Virus record (IMG/VR): IMGVR_UViG_3300037264_002228
Coordinates: 1 to 64,000 of that record
Origin: a virus
Reading direction: 5' to 3' (one strand)
Length of the DNA stretch: 64,000 bases
Positions 3 to 22,984 of this stretch are shown here, piece after piece. The position numbers were made by a program, and so were the translations under genes. Each line of letters opens with the position of its first letter. Position 1 is the first letter of the stretch. The notes beneath the pieces are model-generated. The model did no database searches, had not been told where the DNA came from, and saw only the letters and a list, made by a program, of their open reading frames with translations.

Positions 3-944
3 GATTCTAGTGCCTCAAGTGCCTCAAGTGCATCAAGTGCGTCTAATTCTAGTGCGTCAAGCGACTCTAGTGCGTCAAGTGCATCTAATTCTAGCGCATC
101 TAGTGCATCAAGTGCATCTAATTCTAGTGCGTCAAGCGACTCTAGTGCATCTGCATCTAATTCTAGCGCATCTAGTGCATCTAGTGCCTCAAGTGCATCA
201 AGTGCATCTAATTCTAGCGCATCTAGTGCCTCAAGTGCATCTAATTCTAGTGCGTCAAGTGCATCAAGTGCATCTAATTCTAGCGCATCTAGTGCCTCAA
301 GTGCATCAAGTGCATCTAATTCTAGCGCATCTAGTGCCTCAAGTGCATCAAGTGCATCTAATTCTAGCGCATCTAGTGCCTCAAGTGCGTCAAGTGCATC
401 TAATTCTAGTGCGTCAAGTGCGTCAAGTGCATCTAATTCTAGTGCGTCAAGTGCCTCAAGTGCCTCAAGTGCATCTAATTCTAGTGCCTCAAGTGCATCA
501 AGTGCATCTAATTCTAGCGCATCTAGTGCCTCAAGTGCGTCAAGTGCATCTAATTCTAGTGCGTCAAGTGCGTCAAGTGCATCTAATTCTAGTGCGTCAA
601 GTGCCTCAAGTGCCTCAAGTGCATCTAATTCTAGTGCGTCAAGTGCATCAAGTGCATCTAATTCTAGTGCGTCAAGTGCCTCAAGTGCCTCAAGTGCATC
701 TAATTCTAGTGCGTCAAGTGCATCAAGTGCATCTAATTCTAGCGCATCTAGTGCCTCAAGTGCGTCAAGTGCATCTAATTCTAGTGCATCTAGTGCATCT
801 AGTGCATCTAATTCTAGCGCATCTAGTGCCTCAAGTGCGTCAAGTGCATCTAATTCTAGTGCATCTAGTGCATCTAGTGCATCTAGTAATAGTAGCTCTA
901 GTAGCAGTCTTTCTAGTGAATCTAGCTCTTCGCAGTTGGGTTAA
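3..944 (+). CDS. Serine/alanine-rich repeat protein, C-terminal part (5' truncated)
   Basis: The gene enters from the left edge, so start and N-terminal domain are not visible. Reading codons from base 3 gives 313 residues with no stop before TAA at 942-944. The product is nearly all Ser and Ala, with regularly spaced Asn and a few Asp, in units such as SNSSASSASSA, ending in an almost pure Ser tail (SSSSQLG). Base differences between units fall at third positions of this frame (AGT/AGC, GCA/GCG/GCC, TCA/TCT), so the residues are kept. In the alternative frame starting at base 10 the same differences change residues (His/Arg/Pro), so that frame is not the gene. A flexible or glycosylated stalk of a virion fibre or adhesin is likely, since glycosyltransferase genes follow. 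The function is inference. Confidence 0.8.
   Translation, partial: DSSASSASSASSASNSSASSDSSASSASNSSASSASSASNSSASSDSSASASNSSASSASSASSASSASNSSASSASSASNSSASSASSASNSSASSASSASSASNSSASSASSASSASNSSASSASSASSASNSSASSASSASNSSASSASSASSASNSSASSASSASNSSASSASSASSASNSSASSASSASNSSASSASSASSASNSSASSASSASNSSASSASSASSASNSSASSASSASNSSASSASSASSASNSSASSASSASNSSASSASSASSASNSSASSASSASSNSSSSSSLSSESSSSQLG
330..637 (+). repeat. 150-bp tandem duplication inside the Ser/Ala repeat gene
   Basis: Bases 330-487 recur at 480-637 without a mismatch by eye, an offset of 150 bp or 50 codons, so the copy keeps the reading frame. The rest of 1-890 consists of shorter degenerate units of 9-45 bp of the same type. Such arrays expand and contract by slippage or recombination, so length may vary between isolates and may be mis-assembled. 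Confidence 0.75.
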
Positions 945-949
945 AGATA
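942..949 (+). promoter_or_regulatory. Candidate late promoter box (TAAAGATA) fused to start codon
   Basis: TAAAGATA followed by TAATATG. The first A of AAAGA (943) is 11 nt before ATG 954, and the next six bases (TATAAT) are the same as at 22994-22999. It overlaps the stop codon of the Ser/Ala gene. One mismatch to AAATA. Confidence 0.45.
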
Positions 950-953
950 TAAT

Positions 954-1628
954 ATGAACGGATTTAAAAGTGTTTTCCAAATTCTTGATGTTGATTTTAA
1001 TGCTAGACGTACTGATTATCATATAATAGAATTAAATAATATTAAAATTGGTAGAGTATATCCTGGATTGCTTGATTATATTGATCAAAACATAATAATT
1101 GAAATAAGTCCAATAAACTTTTTAAAACTTGGGTCGTATGCATTAGAGGGACCTATTGGTCTTGGACATTATTATCCACAATATGATTCTTTTACAATAA
1201 ATACTTATTCAATTACACCACGCATATTATTAAGAACCGATACATTTAGTGATGGATTTTTATTCATATCAAGATTCAGAGATGAGTATAAACGTAGGCA
1301 GGTATTTATTAGAAGCGACTTCAAATCATCTATTATTGAACCAAACATTATAAATTCTATATGGTTACATGAATTATCAAATTTTACGCCAAATGGATTA
1401 ATTGACATTAATCTACTTAATAATAATCGACATGAAGATGGGACACAAGATACACATTCTTTTATAAATGCATATACTTTTCTACACAATATGCATGGTG
1501 AAGTTACTATTTATTATTCTGATAAAGATACATTAGGCAACCCAGCAGGACTTAATGCTGATTATGTTGGTAGTGGGACATCTGGCATAGACCCTAGATT
1601 TAACATTCCTACATTAGATCCACAATAA
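954..1628 (+). CDS. Hypothetical protein, 224 aa
   Basis: I do not recognise a family. The 224-residue product has alternating hydrophobic and polar stretches rich in Ile, Asn and Tyr, with no signal peptide, membrane segment or Cys motif, and a Gly-rich C-terminus (GSGTSGIDP). This would fit a beta-rich virion protein but nothing proves it. It starts 9 nt after the Ser/Ala repeat gene, has no Shine-Dalgarno sequence, and is preceded by a promoter-like box at the fixed spacing seen elsewhere. Its position between the repeat protein and the glycosyltransferase block suggests a role with one of them. Confidence 0.6.
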   Translation: MNGFKSVFQILDVDFNARRTDYHIIELNNIKIGRVYPGLLDYIDQNIIIEISPINFLKLGSYALEGPIGLGHYYPQYDSFTINTYSITPRILLRTDTFSDGFLFISRFRDEYKRRQVFIRSDFKSSIIEPNIINSIWLHELSNFTPNGLIDINLLNNNRHEDGTQDTHSFINAYTFLHNMHGEVTIYYSDKDTLGNPAGLNADYVGSGTSGIDPRFNIPTLDPQ

Positions 1629-1635
1629 ATAAAGT

Positions 1636-2979
1636 GTGAAATTAGCTATTATTGTAATTAGTCAGGCTGCTGATTTACAAAATATTCATCAATTCGTTCC
1701 AAAATTTAAATTAACTACAATAGACAAAATACTTAATGAGTCACAAATAGTAATTCATTTTAATACGCCAAATTGTGATAAGCTATTACAAGATATATCA
1801 ATTTTAAAACTATATGATTTTGAAATTAAAGCTATTATAATACAATATCAAACTAGCATTGATAATTATAAATCAATATTAACACAATTAAAATGTTATG
1901 ATATAGAGAATATTGTTATAGGCAGTGATAATGTTAGTAATTCAGAATTTGTCAAAATATTAGTACAAAAATTGATAATAAACAATTCATCAAAGCAAAC
2001 TGTAATTGAACAGAAACAAACAACAAATAAGTTAATTGCGCCTAGTAATATTAAGAATGACAATAACGACATAAGTAAACAAAAACATGGACGAGAAAAG
2101 CATAAAGGACATTTAATTGGTCGATATTTACAATCACCATCGATGTTGTTTAGTAGAGATAGTCATAACATATGGATGGGAGACATGTATCGTGGGCGTA
2201 GTGCTTTTCTAATTTTAGGTGGTCCAAGTTTTGCACAAGTCGATAAAACAAAACTAAATAATCCAGGAATATTAACAATGGGTGTTAATAATTCTGTTAA
2301 ATCATATAGACCAAATATGTGGGTATCTGTCGATGATCCATCACATTTTATTAAATCAATTTGGTTGGACCCAAAAATAACGAAATTTGTACCATTTTCA
2401 CACACTGAAAAAACAATTTTTGATAATGAGTATTGGAAAGAAACAACTATTAAAGTTGGTGATTGTCCAAATGCTTGGTATTTTAAAAGAAATGAAAATT
2501 TTGTAGCTGAACAATATTTATTTGAAGACACAATAAATTGGGGCAATCATAAAGATTTTGGTGGTGGCAGAAGTGTTATGTTAGCTGCCATTAGAATATT
2601 GTATTATTTAGGCATTAGAACAATTTATTTATTAGGTTGTGATTTTAAAATGGACGAACAGTCCAAATACCATTTTGATCAAGATAGATCAAAATCATCA
2701 ATTAAAGGAAATGCATCAACGTATAAATTGTTAATTGATAGGTTTACTAAATTAAAACCAATATTAGATGAAAATGGATTAGAGGTGTTTAATTGTAATC
2801 AATCTTCTGGTTTAACTGTGTTCCCATTTGTTGATTTTAATGATGCAATTCGTATTGCTAGTTCTGAAATGCCATTAGATATAGAAAATGAACGTACAAA
2901 TGGTTTATATGATCGTCTTGCTAAAATAAAAGAAGCCAAAGAAAAAGAAGCCAAAGAAAAAGAACAGAAAATACAATGA
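1636..2979 (+). CDS. DUF115 / glycosyltransferase-like protein, 447 aa
   Basis: Starts with GTG, 7 nt after the previous stop. Two parts are visible: an N-terminal alpha/beta region (about 1-115), then an Asn/Lys-rich linker, then a second alpha/beta domain from about residue 186. That domain has a glycine loop (FLILGGPSF, about 190-198), the phrase VNNSVKSYRPNMWVSVDD, and LLGCDFKMD near 333-341. This layout resembles the DUF115/MptE-like and CST-type sialyltransferase-like proteins that bind a nucleotide-linked donor. The C-terminus is a charged KEAKEKEAKEKE coil. It opens the block of sugar and methyl transfer genes and overlaps the next gene by 4 nt. Donor and acceptor cannot be told from sequence; family assignment is by pattern only. 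Confidence 0.6.
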   Translation: MKLAIIVISQAADLQNIHQFVPKFKLTTIDKILNESQIVIHFNTPNCDKLLQDISILKLYDFEIKAIIIQYQTSIDNYKSILTQLKCYDIENIVIGSDNVSNSEFVKILVQKLIINNSSKQTVIEQKQTTNKLIAPSNIKNDNNDISKQKHGREKHKGHLIGRYLQSPSMLFSRDSHNIWMGDMYRGRSAFLILGGPSFAQVDKTKLNNPGILTMGVNNSVKSYRPNMWVSVDDPSHFIKSIWLDPKITKFVPFSHTEKTIFDNEYWKETTIKVGDCPNAWYFKRNENFVAEQYLFEDTINWGNHKDFGGGRSVMLAAIRILYYLGIRTIYLLGCDFKMDEQSKYHFDQDRSKSSIKGNASTYKLLIDRFTKLKPILDENGLEVFNCNQSSGLTVFPFVDFNDAIRIASSEMPLDIENERTNGLYDRLAKIKEAKEKEAKEKEQKIQ

Positions 2980-3707
2980 ATTTAAATGATATAACGTTAG
3001 TAATAGCTATAGATAAACACCATTTAAAAGAACTATCTTATACATGGCCTACATGGATGAAATTTAAACCAGAAATTAAACTAATGAAAAAAATTGTAAT
3101 TTATGATAAAACACAAATAAGAATGAAAGATTTATCATTATTTGATGGCCATGATGTTCGTTTTGTGCCATGGGACATGGATGGTGTATGTCAGCGAGAA
3201 AAGATGTTAACTTCCTTTATAGTTGTGCCGCCTGCTGAAGTAACAACCAAATGGTATCTTAAATTAGACGTAGATGCTATAGCTACAGCACCAGGAGAAT
3301 GGATAAAAGATGAATGGTTTGAGCCACAAAATGGTAAAAACCCTGTCTATATTTCACATGGTTGGTCATTTAGTAAACCAGCCAATGTGTTACAAACATT
3401 AGATGAGTGGGGTGATACAATAGAGCCACTTAAATTTCATCAACGCCTTAATATTCCATTTAAATCAACGTCAGATAGAGTAATGTCTAAAAGAATAATT
3501 TCTTGGTGTTTTTTTGGTAATACTGAATGGACTAAATTTATTAGTAAATTATGTGGAAATAAATTGCCAGTAGCTTCTCAAGATACTGTGATGTATTATT
3601 GTGCAACTCGCTTAGGTGAACACACAGTTCGTACTAATATGAAAAAATTAGGTTGGGATCATTTGAGATTACATAATTTGCGAAAATTAAGTGAAAAATT
3701 AAAATGA
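2976..3707 (+). CDS. GT-A-like glycosyltransferase, 243 aa
   Basis: The protein has a GT-A style arrangement: an N-terminal beta strand (DITLVIAID), a mid-protein acidic motif KLDVDAIA (about 95-102) corresponding to the metal- and sugar-nucleotide-binding DxD, and later aromatic-rich segments. The DxD follows a Trp-Tyr strand (TTKWYLKLDVD), as in GT2/GT8-type enzymes. It is linked to both neighbours by ATGA overlaps, so it is probably translated with them. It would move a sugar from a nucleotide donor in the cytoplasm to a virion protein, DNA or another acceptor. The sugar is unknown. Confidence 0.6.
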   Translation: MNLNDITLVIAIDKHHLKELSYTWPTWMKFKPEIKLMKKIVIYDKTQIRMKDLSLFDGHDVRFVPWDMDGVCQREKMLTSFIVVPPAEVTTKWYLKLDVDAIATAPGEWIKDEWFEPQNGKNPVYISHGWSFSKPANVLQTLDEWGDTIEPLKFHQRLNIPFKSTSDRVMSKRIISWCFFGNTEWTKFISKLCGNKLPVASQDTVMYYCATRLGEHTVRTNMKKLGWDHLRLHNLRKLSEKLK

Positions 3708-4516
3708 CAAGTGGTGTAGTTTATTATAATGTTGGTAGGTCTTGTGCTGTTAGGCTGTTAGTGTCTGCGCATAGTTTAGTAAAACATTACACAGGTGACA
3801 TTACTATCTTATCTGATGGTAATGAATCACATTCTTATTGTAAACAGATTGCATCAGCCCTAAATATTAACTATAAAGAAGTATTATTAGATATGGATCG
3901 TGATCAACATAATTACCCATATTTGGTAAAAACACGTATAAATGAAATAGCGCCTTATGACTATAATGTTTTTATTGATGCTGATACATTAATAGTTGGT
4001 AGTATATCTGAACTTTTTAATTCATCTCCATTTACAATAACAAGAATGTGTGAATGGAGCACACAAAAAAGAACAATTGCTAATAGAATTTCTTCGTGGT
4101 CACATTTAAAACCAGAATTAGTTGATAAAGCTATAAAATATGGTAAGGCAATTAACACTGGTGTATATTCTTTTGATAGGAATGCATCAATATTTAATGA
4201 ATGGTATGATTTAACTTTAGCTAACAAACAATCTTTTATACCAGATGAAGTAGCATGTCAATTATTAATTACGGTACATGAACACAAATTATTAGATTGT
4301 AGATTCAACTATTCATGTAAATATGGTCCAAATATTGATGACATTAGAATCATTCATTTTCATGGTAGAAAACATTGTAGGCCAGGATTGCCATATAATG
4401 GTATAAAATGGGTAACTGCATATAATGAAGTAGTAAAACTTAATTTGGCGAATATTAAAACATGGCAACCAGCAGGTGATAAGATGTTATATAAATATTT
4501 GAAATCTAATGAATAA
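3704..4516 (+). CDS. GT8-like glycosyltransferase, 270 aa
   Basis: This protein looks like a glycosyltransferase family 8 (glycogenin/LgtC type) enzyme. It has an N-terminal strand followed by SAHSLVKHYTGDITILSDG, the DxD motif in NVFIDADTLIV (about 89-99), an INTGVYSFDR segment typical of GT8 product-binding loops, and a late His-rich loop HFHGRKH (about 218-224), which in the family helps bind metal and diphosphate. Length is normal for the family. It overlaps the gene before by 4 nt and the gene after by 8 nt. Acceptor and sugar are not deducible. Confidence 0.7.
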   Translation: MTSGVVYYNVGRSCAVRLLVSAHSLVKHYTGDITILSDGNESHSYCKQIASALNINYKEVLLDMDRDQHNYPYLVKTRINEIAPYDYNVFIDADTLIVGSISELFNSSPFTITRMCEWSTQKRTIANRISSWSHLKPELVDKAIKYGKAINTGVYSFDRNASIFNEWYDLTLANKQSFIPDEVACQLLITVHEHKLLDCRFNYSCKYGPNIDDIRIIHFHGRKHCRPGLPYNGIKWVTAYNEVVKLNLANIKTWQPAGDKMLYKYLKSNE

Positions 4517-5141
4517 AGTATCGATTTGTATTACTGTAAAAAATAGGAGTAAAGTATTAGGAAGAACAATACTACTTAATACTGTTAGGTCAATAATAAA
4601 CAACATAACAGATAAAGACAATATTGAATTAATAATAACAGATTGGAATTCTACTGATTGGCCGTTAAAAGAATGGATTTATGATGAAGTTAAACATGTT
4701 CAATTTAAGTTGATAACAATTGATAAGCAAGGTTTTAATAGAGGTATTGGATTAAATACTGCAGCTGAACATGCGACTGGTAATGTGTTGTTTTTTAGTG
4801 AGTCTGATGTGATGATTGATAGGCCAACAATTGATTTGGCTTTAAAAATTGAAGATAAAGCTTTATTTCCTCGTATAAGAAGGACAACACCAACTAGTCA
4901 TTTAATAGTTAGAGAAAGTAGGCGTTGGTTGCGTGGGTTTGGGATTGCTATAGTACGACGCGAGTGGTGGGAAACGGCTGGACATTATAAAAGTTTTTGG
5001 TTTGACTCTACTAACTGGGGTGGCGAAGATAATCAATTCCATGCTGATATTGTATCATTAGGTATACCTATAGAACGACCAAAAATGAATAATTTAATTC
5101 ACCAATGGCATCCAAGGAAAATGTTCAATGAACAAGTTTGA
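4509..5141 (+). CDS. GT2-family glycosyltransferase-like protein, 210 aa
   Basis: The N-terminus VSICITVKNRSKVLGRT is a classic GT2 opening strand and nucleotide loop. An acidic motif FFSESDVMI (about 95-103) takes the DxD position, with Glu-Ser-Asp instead of Asp-x-Asp. A later GGEDNQF (about 171-177) matches the catalytic-base ED motif of GT2 enzymes that bind the acceptor. At 210 residues it is a minimal single-domain enzyme without membrane segments. It overlaps the next gene by 14 nt. Its acceptor may be the Ser-rich protein encoded upstream; that is inference. Confidence 0.65.
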   Translation: MNKVSICITVKNRSKVLGRTILLNTVRSIINNITDKDNIELIITDWNSTDWPLKEWIYDEVKHVQFKLITIDKQGFNRGIGLNTAAEHATGNVLFFSESDVMIDRPTIDLALKIEDKALFPRIRRTTPTSHLIVRESRRWLRGFGIAIVRREWWETAGHYKSFWFDSTNWGGEDNQFHADIVSLGIPIERPKMNNLIHQWHPRKMFNEQV

Positions 5142-5844
5142 AATTTGTGTGCAGCAATATTCTTTTACTAAAAGATGTTGGTGGCAATTAAGTAGTTTGG
5201 CAGAACAAACATTAAAAACCAACTTTACGCTTAGATTGAGTATTCATAATAATGATCCATTTCGTGAATTAAATAATAAATTAATATCAACATTTAGTAA
5301 TTTAATTGATTTAAAAGTAAAAATTTGGACTAATGATACGTTTTTTAGACGTGGTGATGTTCGCAATACTGATTTAGTTGAATCATCACGGCAATGGATA
5401 ATATTTGCCGACGCTGATGTAATATTTGATAAATCATTTTTTGAAAAACTTAATAATATTACATTGATACAAAATAAAATGAGTGTTATTAGACGGTTTA
5501 ATACGTCAATAGATGATGGTTATAAACTTATTAATTCAGAAACATATAATACTTATATAAAACGACCAATAACTAAAATAATGAAATTTCCGTTACAACG
5601 AAGTTCGTCAATTGGTGCTGGATATTTCCAGTTAATTAATGCTGATTTTGTTCGTAATAAAGGATTAAAATATAGTAAAGATACCATAGATAGACCATTA
5701 ATAGAACGTAGAGGCCCAACATATAGATCAGATAGACAACTTAGAGGGATTCTAGGCCTTAATCGTATAGATATTGCGCCCATATATCATATTAATCATT
5801 ATAGATTAAAAAATAAAGAAAGAATAGCGACAGGATGTCAATGA
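5128..5844 (+). CDS. GT2-like glycosyltransferase, 238 aa
   Basis: The product has a GT-A pattern: an opening strand EICVQQYSFTKR, the loop SLAEQTLKTNFTLRLSIHNND, and the acidic motif IIFADADVIFD (about 90-100), the likely metal-binding DxD. The C-terminal half contains GAGYFQLINADFV, resembling the acceptor-side helix of GT2 enzymes. It runs into the methyltransferase gene with a short overlap (ATG 5835 or 5841 against TGA 5842-5844). Together with the neighbouring enzymes this suggests stepwise building of an oligosaccharide rather than one sugar. Confidence 0.6.
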   Translation: MNKFEICVQQYSFTKRCWWQLSSLAEQTLKTNFTLRLSIHNNDPFRELNNKLISTFSNLIDLKVKIWTNDTFFRRGDVRNTDLVESSRQWIIFADADVIFDKSFFEKLNNITLIQNKMSVIRRFNTSIDDGYKLINSETYNTYIKRPITKIMKFPLQRSSSIGAGYFQLINADFVRNKGLKYSKDTIDRPLIERRGPTYRSDRQLRGILGLNRIDIAPIYHINHYRLKNKERIATGCQ

Positions 5845-6404
5845 ACACTTTTACAAAAGACTGGCACGGTAGGCATGCTAAAAATTGGAATAGAATATTG
5901 GGCCAATATAAAAATCAGCCAAATATTCGTTATCTTGAAGTAGGTGTATATGAAGGTAAATCGTCATGTTGGGTGATGGACAATATATTAACACATTATA
6001 CGAGTACAGCTACTGGCATCGATCCATGGGTAAATTCAGATGAACAATTCAGAATAGCTACGTCTAATTTAAGAAAATATGGTAATAGATACACAATCAT
6101 GCGTGGATATTCAACAACAGTATTGCCAACATTAACTAACATAGAAGACATAATATATATTGACGGCGACCACCATGCTGATGCTGTTTATAATGATGCG
6201 ATTTTATGTTGGCCAAAATTAAAAATTGGTGGTATATTAATATTTGATGATTATAATTTGCGTTTGCGCAGACATAACCGTTCAGGCGGTGAAGCAGGTA
6301 TACCAAGACCTGGTATAGATAAATTTTTATCATTAATGAGTAATTGCATTAATATCGAAAAAACAAGAACTCAAGTATTTGTTAAAAAAATTATTAAAAA
6401 TTAA
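5835..6404 (+). CDS. Class I SAM-dependent methyltransferase, 189 aa
   Basis: Rossmann-type methyltransferase of the Methyltransf_24 kind (macrocin-O-methyltransferase-like). Motif I YLEVGVYEGKSS (about 33-44) binds S-adenosylmethionine; YIDGDHHADAVYND (about 107-120) and IGGILIFDDYN (about 129-139) correspond to the metal- and substrate-side motifs of these enzymes. Sugar-modifying O-methyltransferases of this type often lie in glycosylation loci. A second ATG at 5841 gives the 4-nt ATGA overlap usual in this genome and may be the true start. Substrate unknown; methylation of a glycan cap is the natural guess. Confidence 0.75.
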   Translation: MSMNTFTKDWHGRHAKNWNRILGQYKNQPNIRYLEVGVYEGKSSCWVMDNILTHYTSTATGIDPWVNSDEQFRIATSNLRKYGNRYTIMRGYSTTVLPTLTNIEDIIYIDGDHHADAVYNDAILCWPKLKIGGILIFDDYNLRLRRHNRSGGEAGIPRPGIDKFLSLMSNCINIEKTRTQVFVKKIIKN

Positions 6405-6413
6405 GGTTGTAGT

Positions 6414-6992
6414 ATGAATTCGAGATTAACATATAGTAATATTGTACAATCAATTGTTCCTAAAAATTTTAAACGTAAAATTCTAATCGATTGTGGTTTC
6501 CATAAAGGGCTATATACAAAAGCATTTTTACAGAAGAATCATGATTTTATAGTGTATGCATTTGATCCAATTAAGATTGAACCCATATTACCAAATGTTA
6601 ATTTTATTAATAAAGCCGTTTGGATAGAAGATTGTGTTAGAAAAATATATTTAAGTCATAGAGATGATGCTTCATCACTAATTAGTACAGTGGCTGTTGA
6701 TGTTAAAAAATCAATAGATATAGAATGTATTAATTTTAATAAGTGGATTAATGATAATTTTACTAGTGATGATTATATTCATGTAAAACTAGACATTGAA
6801 GGTGCTGAATATCAAGTTTTACATAACATGATTAATGGCGGATCTATAAAATTGATAAGTGAATTAGTATGTGAATGGCATAGTAAAATCTGTTCTAGAC
6901 AATATAGACAAATTATGTATATAACTGATGATTTGTTTATGGAAAAATTAAAAACATTTGATAATATAAAACTTTTAAGTAAATGGATATGA
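6414..6992 (+). CDS. FkbM-family methyltransferase, 192 aa
   Basis: Motif I is LIDCGFHKGLYTKAF (about 24-38), followed by YAFDPIKIE for the ribose-binding acid. The FkbM signature appears as VKLDIEGAEYQVLHNM (about 123-138). FkbM enzymes O-methylate sugars and polyketides. It is the second methyltransferase in the block, which makes glycan decoration more likely than DNA methylation; no DNA methylase DPPY/NPPY motif is seen. Ten bases separate it from the previous gene. The following gene starts inside its last codons. Confidence 0.7.
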   Translation: MNSRLTYSNIVQSIVPKNFKRKILIDCGFHKGLYTKAFLQKNHDFIVYAFDPIKIEPILPNVNFINKAVWIEDCVRKIYLSHRDDASSLISTVAVDVKKSIDIECINFNKWINDNFTSDDYIHVKLDIEGAEYQVLHNMINGGSIKLISELVCEWHSKICSRQYRQIMYITDDLFMEKLKTFDNIKLLSKWI

Positions 6993-7735
6993 AAACATTG
7001 ATATTCCTATGCGGTTATGATGATTTTTATTTCAAACTAGCTAACATGACCGCGCATACAATTCGTTTATCTGGTTATAAACAAGACATAGTTATTTTTA
7101 CTATTGATGATCGTAAATCAGACTATGCAAAATGTATAAACCTGGCGTCACATAAAGAGTCTAATTTAATTATAACACAGAAAGAAGGTGGTTTTTTCCA
7201 TCGTAAATTATGTAAAGAATTTGGACATAAGCAGTATGACAAACAGTATGATTTCTTTGTAATAAAAACACTTCCTGGATCTATAATCAAAAAAGAAGAT
7301 TATGATTTTATATTGTATATGGATTCTGATATGTTGGTCCATTCCTCATTAGATAAAATTTTTACATATAAAACAGTTGTATCTGATTTTAATAGTAAAA
7401 ATGCTTATAAAGACTTAAAAGGATTATCTAAACACTTAACATCGCAAGAAGAAAGTGTTGCACGTAGTTTATCTGGCATTGGTGGTGGTGGATTTGGTGT
7501 CCCGTCTAGTCACTATAGATGGTTTGATGATTATAGAAAAATTTATCTTCAATATATCAATGAAATCCCACATGATCAACCAGCTCTGACTATGACTATG
7601 ATAAGACATTATAATGATTATAAAGTGGAAAAATTACCAAATCGTGCTTATTGGATACATTATTGGGGCTATAGAAAAGCACAAATGATAAAAGATTATG
7701 ATGCAAAATACGCAAATTGTATTTTAAATAAATGA
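6983..7735 (+). CDS. GT8-like glycosyltransferase, 250 aa
   Basis: It opens with KTLIFLCGYDDFYFKLANM and carries the acidic motif FILYMDSDMLVHSSLDKIF (about 109-127), the DxD plus following loop typical of GT8 enzymes. SGIGGGGFGVPSSHYRWFDDY and HDQPALTM later in the protein match the acceptor-side segments, with an asparagine/aspartate-rich loop for the product. A second ATG at 6989 gives a 4-nt overlap with the previous stop and may be the real start. Last enzyme of the modification block; it joins gene 47 by an ATGA overlap, so the block and the recombination genes may share a transcript. Confidence 0.65.
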   Translation: MDMKTLIFLCGYDDFYFKLANMTAHTIRLSGYKQDIVIFTIDDRKSDYAKCINLASHKESNLIITQKEGGFFHRKLCKEFGHKQYDKQYDFFVIKTLPGSIIKKEDYDFILYMDSDMLVHSSLDKIFTYKTVVSDFNSKNAYKDLKGLSKHLTSQEESVARSLSGIGGGGFGVPSSHYRWFDDYRKIYLQYINEIPHDQPALTMTMIRHYNDYKVEKLPNRAYWIHYWGYRKAQMIKDYDAKYANCILNK

Positions 7736-13074: not shown

Positions 13075-14082
13075 GTGAATTATAGATCACAGCCAAAACC
13101 TCAAATTCAACGTGTTAATGTTCGAATGCATCCAGTACCAGTTGTTAAAAAACAGTCCCCACAAATGTCCGTAATTCATAAACCTGTATCAAGACCCACT
13201 TTACCAGTAGTGAAACATACGTCTAATAATGTACAGAAACCAGTAGTAACTACGTCTAAGCCTCAGCCAGCAGTAAGACAAGAAGCCAGACAAAATATTA
13301 AAGTAAAACCGAATATTCAAGTTAATAGATCACCAAATGTAGTAAAACCAAGAAATATTTCTAGACATTCTAGTTCAATGTCAGCGCAGCACCAAAACTT
13401 GTTACAACAATATAAAGAATCTGTTGATAAGTTGCGTTGTGTTGGCAATAACAAAATACTTATTATTGTAGCTTGTGGACCTTCTATATTAAATGTTAAC
13501 ATTGAAGAATTAAAAGATTATAAAAACATCGACATAATGTGTATTAACAAACCAGACAAAAGAGTATGGCCATCACCATATTGGTTGTTCTGTGATCAAA
13601 GTCAATACGCACGTAACCAAGACACATGGGAACAATATAATGGGATTATCATAAATGCTTCATCGGTTCGTGCTCGGCATAGGCGTCAGGTATTAATTAA
13701 AAGCCTGTCTGGTCGCGGATTTTCAAGAGATTTAGCTAAAGGATTTTATATTGGTAGATCATCAACATACTCAGCAATGCAAGTGGCATTATGGATGAAT
13801 TATAGTAAGATATATATATTCGGTGTTGATATGTGTGCTGTTGATGGTAAATTACATTATTATGGTAAGAATCCTGACGTGTCAGATACAAATAGAGTAC
13901 AACGGTTCGATAGAGAAGCAGAAAGTTATATGCACGCAGCCACTAGCGTTTTAAAACAAGAGGATAGAGAGAAATTTGTTTTTTGTTCATCTTACAATAA
14001 ATATAAATTTGTTGATTATTTTCAGCGGTTGGATGAAAAGGAAGCTGTATCAATTATAATAGAGCAGGCAAATAAACTTTAG
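13075..14082 (+). CDS. DUF115-like protein with a proline-rich N-terminal tail, 335 aa
   Basis: The start is GTG. Residues 1-115 are basic, Pro/Gln/Val-rich and probably disordered. From about 125 an alpha/beta domain begins with ILIIVACGPSILNVNIEEL, a glycine loop close to that of the DUF115-like gene at 1636-2979 (GGPS there, CGPS here). GFYIGRSSTYSAMQVALWM and IYIFGVDMC (about 244-252) repeat its later motifs (GGGRSVMLAAIRIL; IYLLGCDF). The two are probably distant paralogues. A nucleotide-sugar-dependent transferase is plausible. It ends with the stop overlapping the AGGAGG of the next gene. Confidence 0.6.
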   Translation: MNYRSQPKPQIQRVNVRMHPVPVVKKQSPQMSVIHKPVSRPTLPVVKHTSNNVQKPVVTTSKPQPAVRQEARQNIKVKPNIQVNRSPNVVKPRNISRHSSSMSAQHQNLLQQYKESVDKLRCVGNNKILIIVACGPSILNVNIEELKDYKNIDIMCINKPDKRVWPSPYWLFCDQSQYARNQDTWEQYNGIIINASSVRARHRRQVLIKSLSGRGFSRDLAKGFYIGRSSTYSAMQVALWMNYSKIYIFGVDMCAVDGKLHYYGKNPDVSDTNRVQRFDREAESYMHAATSVLKQEDREKFVFCSSYNKYKFVDYFQRLDEKEAVSIIIEQANKL

Positions 14083-21566: not shown

Positions 21567-22355
21567 ATGAAATATGGATTTGTAATTGGAACTTACGGGT
21601 CATTGCCTTCAGTAGATCTCAATATATCTAATATCAAACACTTCTTTGGTAATGTTCCTATATTAATAAATGATGATGCTAGTGGAGTTGATTTTTCTAA
21701 TTTAATTGCGGCTCGTAAATGCTCATTAAATGTTAATGATGTAAATTATGGTCATGTACTAGGTGATCTTTCTGCATTTATTAATGGATTAAAATGGGCA
21801 CGTCATAATAATATCGATGTACTTATAAAAATTTCTCGTAAACTATTGTTTAGATATGATTTAAAACAATACTTAAATAAAATAATTGAATCGCACCATG
21901 ATTTTGAATGCGTGTCTTCTGACTATTATAATTTTGGTTATATGACATCATTGTTTGCAATGCATACTAAACGATTTAGTAATAAACATTTAAAGAGTAT
22001 GAAGATAGCTTTAGATATGATGTGTTTCCCGCCAGAATATGAAAACCATAAGAAGTTGTTAATTTCTAAAAAATTGTATTCTAATCACACACAGAAGATG
22101 AATCAAGAACTTTATTTTAGACATTGTTTAAAAGTTAATCCAATAACCGTTGAATGGTGGCAACATCGAATGTTTGTATGGGGTGGTCTAAAACATTTAA
22201 GCATTCGTACAAATGGTTTTTCTGAATTGCCGCTTACATATCAAAACTTAACACAAGAAGGTAAGTTTATGGTACACCATAAAGCATTAGAAATAAATCA
22301 GGCTTTATGTAAAAAATATGGTCTTTCTTATACGGCAAAAGAATTACTACAATGA
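21567..22355 (+). CDS. Glycosyltransferase-like protein, 262 aa
   Basis: Start strand YGFVIGTYGSLPSVDLNISNI and VPILINDDASGVDF resemble the donor-binding half of GT-A enzymes. A canonical DxD is not obvious: DVLIKISRKLLFR occupies the place where one would be expected, so it may be inactive or use another metal site. The C-terminal half is rich in His, Trp and Tyr (WWQHRMFVWGG), as in acceptor domains. It shares 4 nt with the following glycosyltransferase-like gene. Confidence 0.45.
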   Translation: MKYGFVIGTYGSLPSVDLNISNIKHFFGNVPILINDDASGVDFSNLIAARKCSLNVNDVNYGHVLGDLSAFINGLKWARHNNIDVLIKISRKLLFRYDLKQYLNKIIESHHDFECVSSDYYNFGYMTSLFAMHTKRFSNKHLKSMKIALDMMCFPPEYENHKKLLISKKLYSNHTQKMNQELYFRHCLKVNPITVEWWQHRMFVWGGLKHLSIRTNGFSELPLTYQNLTQEGKFMVHHKALEINQALCKKYGLSYTAKELLQ

Positions 22356-22984
22356 TTAAAAAACCTGTATTAGACCATCAATTATTCTTTTGTGTTGAAA
22401 CTATTTCATCTGGATATCGTCAACTATATTGGTGTTTAGCTAATTTAAGAAAACATTATCCATTAGCTCATGTTTTAGTTATAGTAGAAGGTGAGAATAT
22501 ATCTAATCTTGATATGTTTAAAGTAAATGTGATATATGGTAAAAACTTATGGAATGTCGATATTGGTGGATGCGGTCAATTATGGAATCGTAGATTTAAA
22601 TATTTTCTAAAAAGCAATAAACAATATTTATTTAGGATAGATTCCGACACTAAGATTGAGAAGAGATTAAGCTTCCTTCCTGTTATTGATTGTGTATTTG
22701 GAACTGTTGTTGGATGTAGTGAGCGACGTTTTATACAAGGTGGTTTTGTTGGTTTAACTAGAAATATAGCCGTCAAAATTCTCAAATCTGGTGTTTTGAT
22801 GAATAGAAAATTTAATGACTATAAATATTATGTTAATAAGAAATGGCTAGCATCAGATGATAGGGCATTGAAAGAATTGAATATGATTGGAGTGCCATTC
22901 TATAATCACCCAGAAATAAAATGTGTATGGAGAGGATCTGTACAAAGTGGCAAATATGCTATTACACATCCACATAAAATATAG
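22352..22984 (+). CDS. GT-A-like glycosyltransferase, 210 aa
   Basis: HQLFFCVETISSGYRQLYWCLANLRKHYP is an N-terminal region like that of small GT2/GT8 proteins. FRIDSDTKIEKRLSF (about 91-105) carries the DxD-type motif. GGFVGLTRNIAVKIL and WLASDDRALKEL (about 166-177) are the later substrate loops, the second with an acidic pair in the catalytic-base position. It forms a pair with the previous gene, away from the main cassette at 1.6-7.7 kb, inside structural genes, so its target may be a virion protein. Confidence 0.55.
   Translation: MIKKPVLDHQLFFCVETISSGYRQLYWCLANLRKHYPLAHVLVIVEGENISNLDMFKVNVIYGKNLWNVDIGGCGQLWNRRFKYFLKSNKQYLFRIDSDTKIEKRLSFLPVIDCVFGTVVGCSERRFIQGGFVGLTRNIAVKILKSGVLMNRKFNDYKYYVNKKWLASDDRALKELNMIGVPFYNHPEIKCVWRGSVQSGKYAITHPHKI

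Follow-up and report, generated by a model that had tools for sequence, protein, structure and literature searches.

Gram-positive bacteria encode long serine-rich repeat (SRR) proteins beside several soluble glycosyltransferases (GTs), and cytoplasmic O-glycosylation has been proposed for this system (PMC6973325, PMC5207161). Maf enzymes, which contain a PF01973 domain, O-glycosylate Ser/Thr residues of flagellin, and some of them accept CMP-Neu5Ac and CMP-Kdo (PMC11339370). For phages, a mycobacteriophage study (Freeman 2023, cited in PMC12619734) reportedly describes phage-encoded GTs that modify capsid and tail-tube subunits at their C termini, and a study on jumbo cyanophages of the P-SSM2 type describes clustered GTs, sugar enzymes, and O-methyltransferases, which were read as modifying the host surface (PMC7824862). 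Here, we describe a locus at the beginning of IMG/VR record IMGVR_UViG_3300037264_002228, in which a Ser-rich repeat gene is followed by a packed array of predicted GT and methyltransferase genes. The window analyzed comprises bases 1 to 64,000 of this linear contig of 98,443 bases, which appears to come from a large, uncultured phage. We consider it probable, at roughly 60%, that the locus encodes a Ser-rich virion appendage together with the enzymes glycosylating that appendage.

The locus resembles the Gram-positive SRR system in that a long Ser-rich repeat protein is encoded beside several soluble GTs. However, it is carried by a phage, the repeat protein has a putative fibre-like head, a DUF115/Maf-like core takes the place of GtfA/GtfB, and methyltransferases are present. 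Neither the GtfA/GtfB pair nor accessory Sec components (SecA2/SecY2) were found among the Pfam, PHROG, and NCBIfam matches of the array, which is therefore not filed as a member of the Gram-positive SRR group. The parallel with SRR adhesins drawn in a first-pass annotation of this DNA thus holds as an analogy, not as homology. The DUF115/MptE-like domain is shared with Maf flagellin GTs, but here the family match is below the cut-off, the proposed acceptor is a repetitive Ser tract, and there are two partner GTs. Unlike the mycobacteriophage case, the candidate target is a separate Ser-rich appendage with a dedicated multienzyme array. Jumbo cyanophage clusters also combine sugar genes with methyltransferases in large T4-like phages, but the accessible part of PMC7824862 draws no link to a Ser-rich gene.

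The assignment of the contig to a T4-like phage in the first-pass annotation was borne out by a T4-type terminase and homologues of gp46 and gp47. The terminase matches those of T4-like phages at an identity of only about 25 to 32%, and gp47/gp46 and the sheath gene are common to the relatives. A search of 50,697 phage records yielded no close DNA match to the first 20 kb. The Ser-rich open reading frame (ORF) is the 3' part of a gene that is open at the first base of the contig, so the protein has at least 313 residues, as annotated earlier. Ser makes up 64% of its residues, Ala 26%, and Asn 7%; the repeat unit is N(SSA)nS, usually 11 or 14 residues long. A second plus-strand frame is also open across this ORF. 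When similar repeat copies were compared, 6,127 of 6,573 differences fell at third positions of the Ser/Ala/Asn frame (93%), which indicates that this frame codes and that the residues are kept by selection; the repeat protein sequence is thus under selection. The corresponding bias was 69% and 79% in the Ser-rich tails of two relatives, L004 and L005, respectively. Given the third-position bias, both a chance origin of the repeat and a different reading frame were rejected. The opposite end of the contig carries no repeat and was thus dismissed as the site of the missing 5' half. A repeat-pattern search retrieved the contig of L004 only. The nine genes after the Ser-rich gene form one packed array (954 to 7735) with gaps of −14 to +9 bp, which continues into the gp47/gp46 homologues. 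The features are as follows.

3 to 944, plus strand: Ser-rich repeat gene, 3' part, 313 amino acids (aa); third-position bias, 93%; complete homologue, L004:1846-3801
954 to 1628, plus strand: conserved protein, 224 aa; between the Ser-rich gene and DUF115 in 3/3 clade members
1636 to 2979, plus strand: DUF115/MptE-Maf-like protein, proposed initiating Ser O-glycosyltransferase; PF01973, phrog_4603; A8 family
2976 to 3707, plus strand: GTa, putative glycosyltransferase, DVD motif, core; conserved in L004, L005, and L029 to L034
3704 to 4516, plus strand: GTb, GT8/glycogenin-like glycosyltransferase, DAD motif, core; Glyco_transf_8, 0.017; profile match to glycogenin, 8e-4
4509 to 5141, plus strand: GT2-family glycosyltransferase, ESD at the motif, accessory; PF00535, 9.9e-10, over cut-off
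5128 to 5844, plus strand: GTd, GT2/GT8-like glycosyltransferase, DAD motif, accessory; PF00535, 0.0013; PF01501, 0.0019
5835 to 6404, plus strand: Methyltransf_24 methyltransferase, accessory; PF13578, 9e-21, over cut-off; absent from L004 and L005
6414 to 6992, plus strand: FkbM-family methyltransferase, accessory; PF05050, 5.6e-6, and TIGR01444, 4e-10, both over cut-off; also in L004
6983 to 7735, plus strand: GTe, putative glycosyltransferase, DSD motif, accessory; 80% identical in L004
7732 to 10951, plus strand: gp47 and gp46 (recombination nuclease) homologues, synteny anchor; end of the packed array
13075 to 14082, plus strand: second DUF115-like protein, possible further glycosyltransferase; phrog_4603, 1.6e-8

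The arrangement of one unassigned gene followed by eight linked genes is as the first-pass annotation described it, and both methyltransferases stand. Family support is weaker for the DUF115 protein, GTb, and GTd than for GT2, Methyltransf_24, and FkbM. Five GT-like enzymes with DxD motifs had been annotated. Three of them match GT families, but GT2 has ESD where its L004 orthologue has DAD, and GTa and GTe had no credible match in family searches; the latter two are likely GTs, as judged by a conserved DxD-type motif, size, and context. Profile searches against the PDB yielded nothing credible for the DUF115 protein, GTa, or GTe. The DUF115 protein matches phrog_4603, "alpha-2,3-sialyltransferase" (2.8e-10), and retrieved relatives in profile searches but none in single-sequence searches. 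The curated cut-off of PF01973 was passed by no phage record searched. No clear membrane segment was found in any cassette protein. The 224-aa protein had no match in Pfam or PHROG searches, nor in the phage collection when used as a query; it is 52% identical to L004:3804-4484 and 40% identical to L005:677-1297. The Methyltransf_24 gene as a query retrieved unrelated contigs only.

Eight relatives were found with gp47 as a synteny anchor, two of which bear the cassette, L004 (gp47 75% identical) and L005 (69%). The other six (gp47 about 45% identical) had no cassette genes in the stretches examined and no A8-type DUF115 in their whole records. The Ser-rich gene of L004 is complete and encodes 651 aa, consisting of a head of about 437 residues with collagen-like stretches and a Ser-rich tail ending in N(SSA)n units. 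That of L005 is incomplete and has a different repeat, SLSSQSPQSAS, with 58% Ser. Between it and gp47, L005 contains only the homologue of the 224-aa protein, DUF115, GTa, and GTb, which together with the Ser-rich gene make up the minimal core. GT2, GTd, FkbM, and GTe are added in the window and L004, and Methyltransf_24 in the window alone, so a constant core is accompanied by a variable extension set. The core is contiguous in all three clade members despite the change of the repeat from NSSASSA to SLSSQSPQSAS. Directly upstream of the L004 Ser-rich gene is a gene for an actin-like protein (L004:551-1828; Pfam Volactin, 2.5e-56), and in G003 and G007, similar genes lie close to those for the head proteins.

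A counterpart of the missing 5' half is supplied by L004, but the structure model of the L004 head is too poor for a tail-fibre call. The head is found with variable C termini in G001, G003, G006, and G007, and L004 thus shares it with proteins of three other phages; as a query, the L004 head had no match in the phage collection. The head-family proteins have 485 aa in G006, where there is no Ser tail, 1,019 aa in G003, and 577 and 1,452 aa in G007, the last having poly-Ser linkers and repeated WSE-type C-terminal blocks. In the 1,452-aa protein (L054:2105-6463), very long poly-Ser and SSSSSK/R stretches join folded-looking blocks. A conserved N terminus combined with exchangeable C-terminal parts would be typical of a virion appendage, and the head-bearing Ser-rich protein is probably located on the particle. 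In G006, the genes after that for the head are a GT2 gene, an HPAT-family gene in the opposite orientation, a gene whose product has weak, local similarity to the 224-aa protein, and a sugar gene of the epimerase family. HPAT enzymes are peptide O-glycosyltransferases known from plants. The G006 gene (L009:3971-4882; PF23452, 4.9e-33) lies beside a collagen-like head protein gene in a phage contig, and no HPAT-family gene was found in the other records searched.

If the appendage is glycosylated by the array, the head, complete only in L004, would attach the Ser-rich protein to the particle, and the C-terminal N(SSA)n tail would form an extended scaffold. During infection, the DUF115/Maf-like protein, GTb, and GTa would add sugars to Ser hydroxyls in the host cytoplasm; DUF115 is proposed to act first and GTb and GTa after it, since all three belong to the conserved core. 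The sugar chains would be lengthened by GT2, GTd, and GTe and methylated by FkbM and Methyltransf_24. A sugar-coated tail may stiffen or shield the appendage or tune its binding. Cytoplasmic protein glycosylation fits better than a lipid-linked surface glycan because clear membrane segments are lacking. As for the methyl cap suggested in the first-pass annotation, L004 has FkbM but not Methyltransf_24, and L005 has neither, so capping would be optional.

DUF115, GTb, and GTa also occur together in L029 to L034, which by gene content alone are phage-like (G009 to G012) or giant-virus-like (G013 and G014). Long Ser-rich stretches are present in proteins encoded far from the module in G009, G010, and G012, and one such G012 protein has baseplate and virion-structural family matches. 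A direct ORF scan showed that genomes with and without the module cannot be told apart by whether they encode Ser-rich proteins, and therefore only local linkage was taken as evidence. A wider search yielded 152 further DUF115 loci, mostly from Phycisphaerales or viral contigs like them. In Phycisphaerales-type loci, the gene immediately after DUF115 encodes a Ser-rich protein that weakly matches the Hint domain. At 90% clustering, a Ser-rich gene lay directly downstream of A8-type DUF115 in 23 of 35 eligible loci, mostly Phycisphaerales, compared with no more than 4 of 48 for any other kilobase, and this proportion shrinks to 3 of 14 at 70% clustering, as it comes mostly from one close-knit group. 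Other lineages therefore matter. DUF115 directly follows Ser-rich genes in L171, a Victivallaceae metagenome-assembled genome whose array includes a tape-measure match, and Ser-rich ORFs in L098; the Ser-rich gene is at a greater distance from DUF115 in L097, L172, and L173. When the lineages with strong DUF115 matches and this clade were counted, 7 of 11 had a Ser-rich gene in the stretch examined, versus 3 of 33 phage genome pieces lacking this DUF115 (Fisher P = 8e-4). The proportion became 7/15 (P = 0.006) when the four lineages of L029 to L034 were added and 7/20 (P = 0.03) with a further five weak DUF115 matches; these P values are indicative only, as the lineages were grouped with the pattern already in view. 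A GT32-like gene was found within 6 kb in 39 of the 152 loci. L182:9806-13744 and some like loci contain a Phycisphaerales set of DUF115, a Ser-rich/Hint-like protein, and GT32, with several copies per genome.

These linkages raise the possibility, which we put forward tentatively and hold to be somewhat doubtful, that A8-type DUF115 marks a mobile, hitherto unrecognized system for glycosylating Ser-rich proteins in T4-like and other tailed phages and in Planctomycetota/PVC bacteria, with DUF115 as the initiator, GTa, GTb, and GT32 as lineage-variable partners, and maybe CMP-Kdo as the donor here. Candidate systems of this type are perhaps also present in giant viruses. As a guess, phages of this clade may infect a PVC bacterium. 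CMP-Kdo may be the sugar donor in this phage because some Maf enzymes accept it and the contig, beyond the window, encodes KdsA (Kdo-8-phosphate synthase; L002:12412-13188; over the cut-off of an NCBIfam equivalog) and a CBS-domain sugar-phosphate isomerase of the KpsF/KdsD-like type (L003:8439-9383). KdsA was absent from the 12 relatives searched and was thus rejected as a general part of the system. An RmlB-like gene of the dTDP-glucose dehydratase/epimerase family (L003:15463-16461) is located on the same contig. The second DUF115-like gene is kept in 8/8 relatives checked, with or without the cassette. Two small GT-like genes without a family match (window positions 21567 to 22984) lie beside structural genes; one of them has a DSD motif, and G001 contains a 63% homologue of the first.

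Several points weigh against a glycosylated Ser-rich appendage. The PF01973 match of the DUF115 protein (1e-5, 25.8 bits) is under the Pfam cut-off of 34.6 bits. A GT42/Cst-II-like fold would fit its match to phrog_4603, but the model of this protein is poor (pLDDT, 56), with PDB matches to generic Rossmann folds, as is that of the L004 head (pLDDT, 43), which had no fold match at E ≤ 0.001. No Ser-rich gene lies near the module in L029 to L034, which indicates that the link is not obligatory; among these, G011, G013, and G014, which are fragments or were read locally, have the module with no Ser-rich gene seen nearby, which goes part of the way toward the refutation named in the first-pass annotation. 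Conversely, G004 and G007 have Ser-rich proteins but lack this module. The close-knit origin of the Phycisphaerales pairs counts here as well, and both the glycan and the virion location of the Ser-rich protein are putative. The sugar-coated stalk or fibre proposed in the first-pass annotation is partly supported, by the core linkage in 3/3 clade members, the shared head, the linkage in other lineages, and the lack of clear membrane segments and of a thymidylate synthase family gene, but two of the five GTs match no family. Co-occurrence in related phages is likewise complete within the clade but not beyond it.

Among alternative explanations, it is improbable that the cassette alters the host surface (lipopolysaccharide or capsule) against superinfection, with the Ser-rich neighbor being incidental. 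This is the reading proposed for jumbo cyanophage sugar clusters in PMC7824862, and KdsA, the KpsF/KdsD-like isomerase, and the RmlB-like enzyme fit lipopolysaccharide chemistry. However, membrane or lipid-carrier enzymes are usually required to build surface antigens, whereas the cassette has no clear membrane segment, and the linkage of DUF115 with Ser-rich genes extends to other lineages. We also regard as unlikely that the enzymes glycosylate another structural protein, such as the capsid, sheath, or baseplate, with the Ser-rich tail acting as a simple spacer that carries no modification. The Ser-rich linkers without the module in G004 and G007, the distance between module and Ser-rich proteins in G009, G010, and G012, and the glycosylated capsid and tail-tube proteins of mycobacteriophages (cited in PMC12619734) speak for it, but the contiguity in 3/3 clade members and the Planctomycete pairs do not, and G003 to G008 keep the second DUF115, which could act on their Ser-rich proteins. 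Glycosylation of modified phage DNA bases, often the role of phage GTs according to PMC12619734, is very improbable, since the three clade records G000 to G002 (incomplete records) have no match to the thymidylate synthase family (base hydroxymethylases), compared with 9 of 14 control genomes, and the enzyme core also lies beside Ser-rich genes in bacterial contigs.

Elsewhere on the contig, a 589-aa protein (L002:9124-10893) looks, from its translation alone, like an acyl-CoA dehydrogenase, which is unusual for a phage, and 12 tRNA genes are clustered at L003:12391-15446.

A search of 5.39 million open-access papers for a glycosylated Ser-rich phage tail fibre returned one unrelated paper and no prior description. 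The parts are of known kinds, namely, Maf-like GTs, SRR-like tracts, and phage virion glycosylation. What appears to be new is their joint occurrence in a phage appendage operon, along with the pairing of DUF115 with Ser-rich proteins across phages and Planctomycetota. If the Ser-rich appendage is indeed glycosylated by the array, some large phages would carry operons of their own dedicated to O-glycosylating the protein of a virion appendage, possibly with methylated glycans, and A8-type DUF115 would be a marker for such systems in metagenomes and bacterial genomes. The minimal set of L005 is small enough for reconstitution in Escherichia coli. The virion appendage would then be a third target of phage sugar genes, beside the host surface and DNA.

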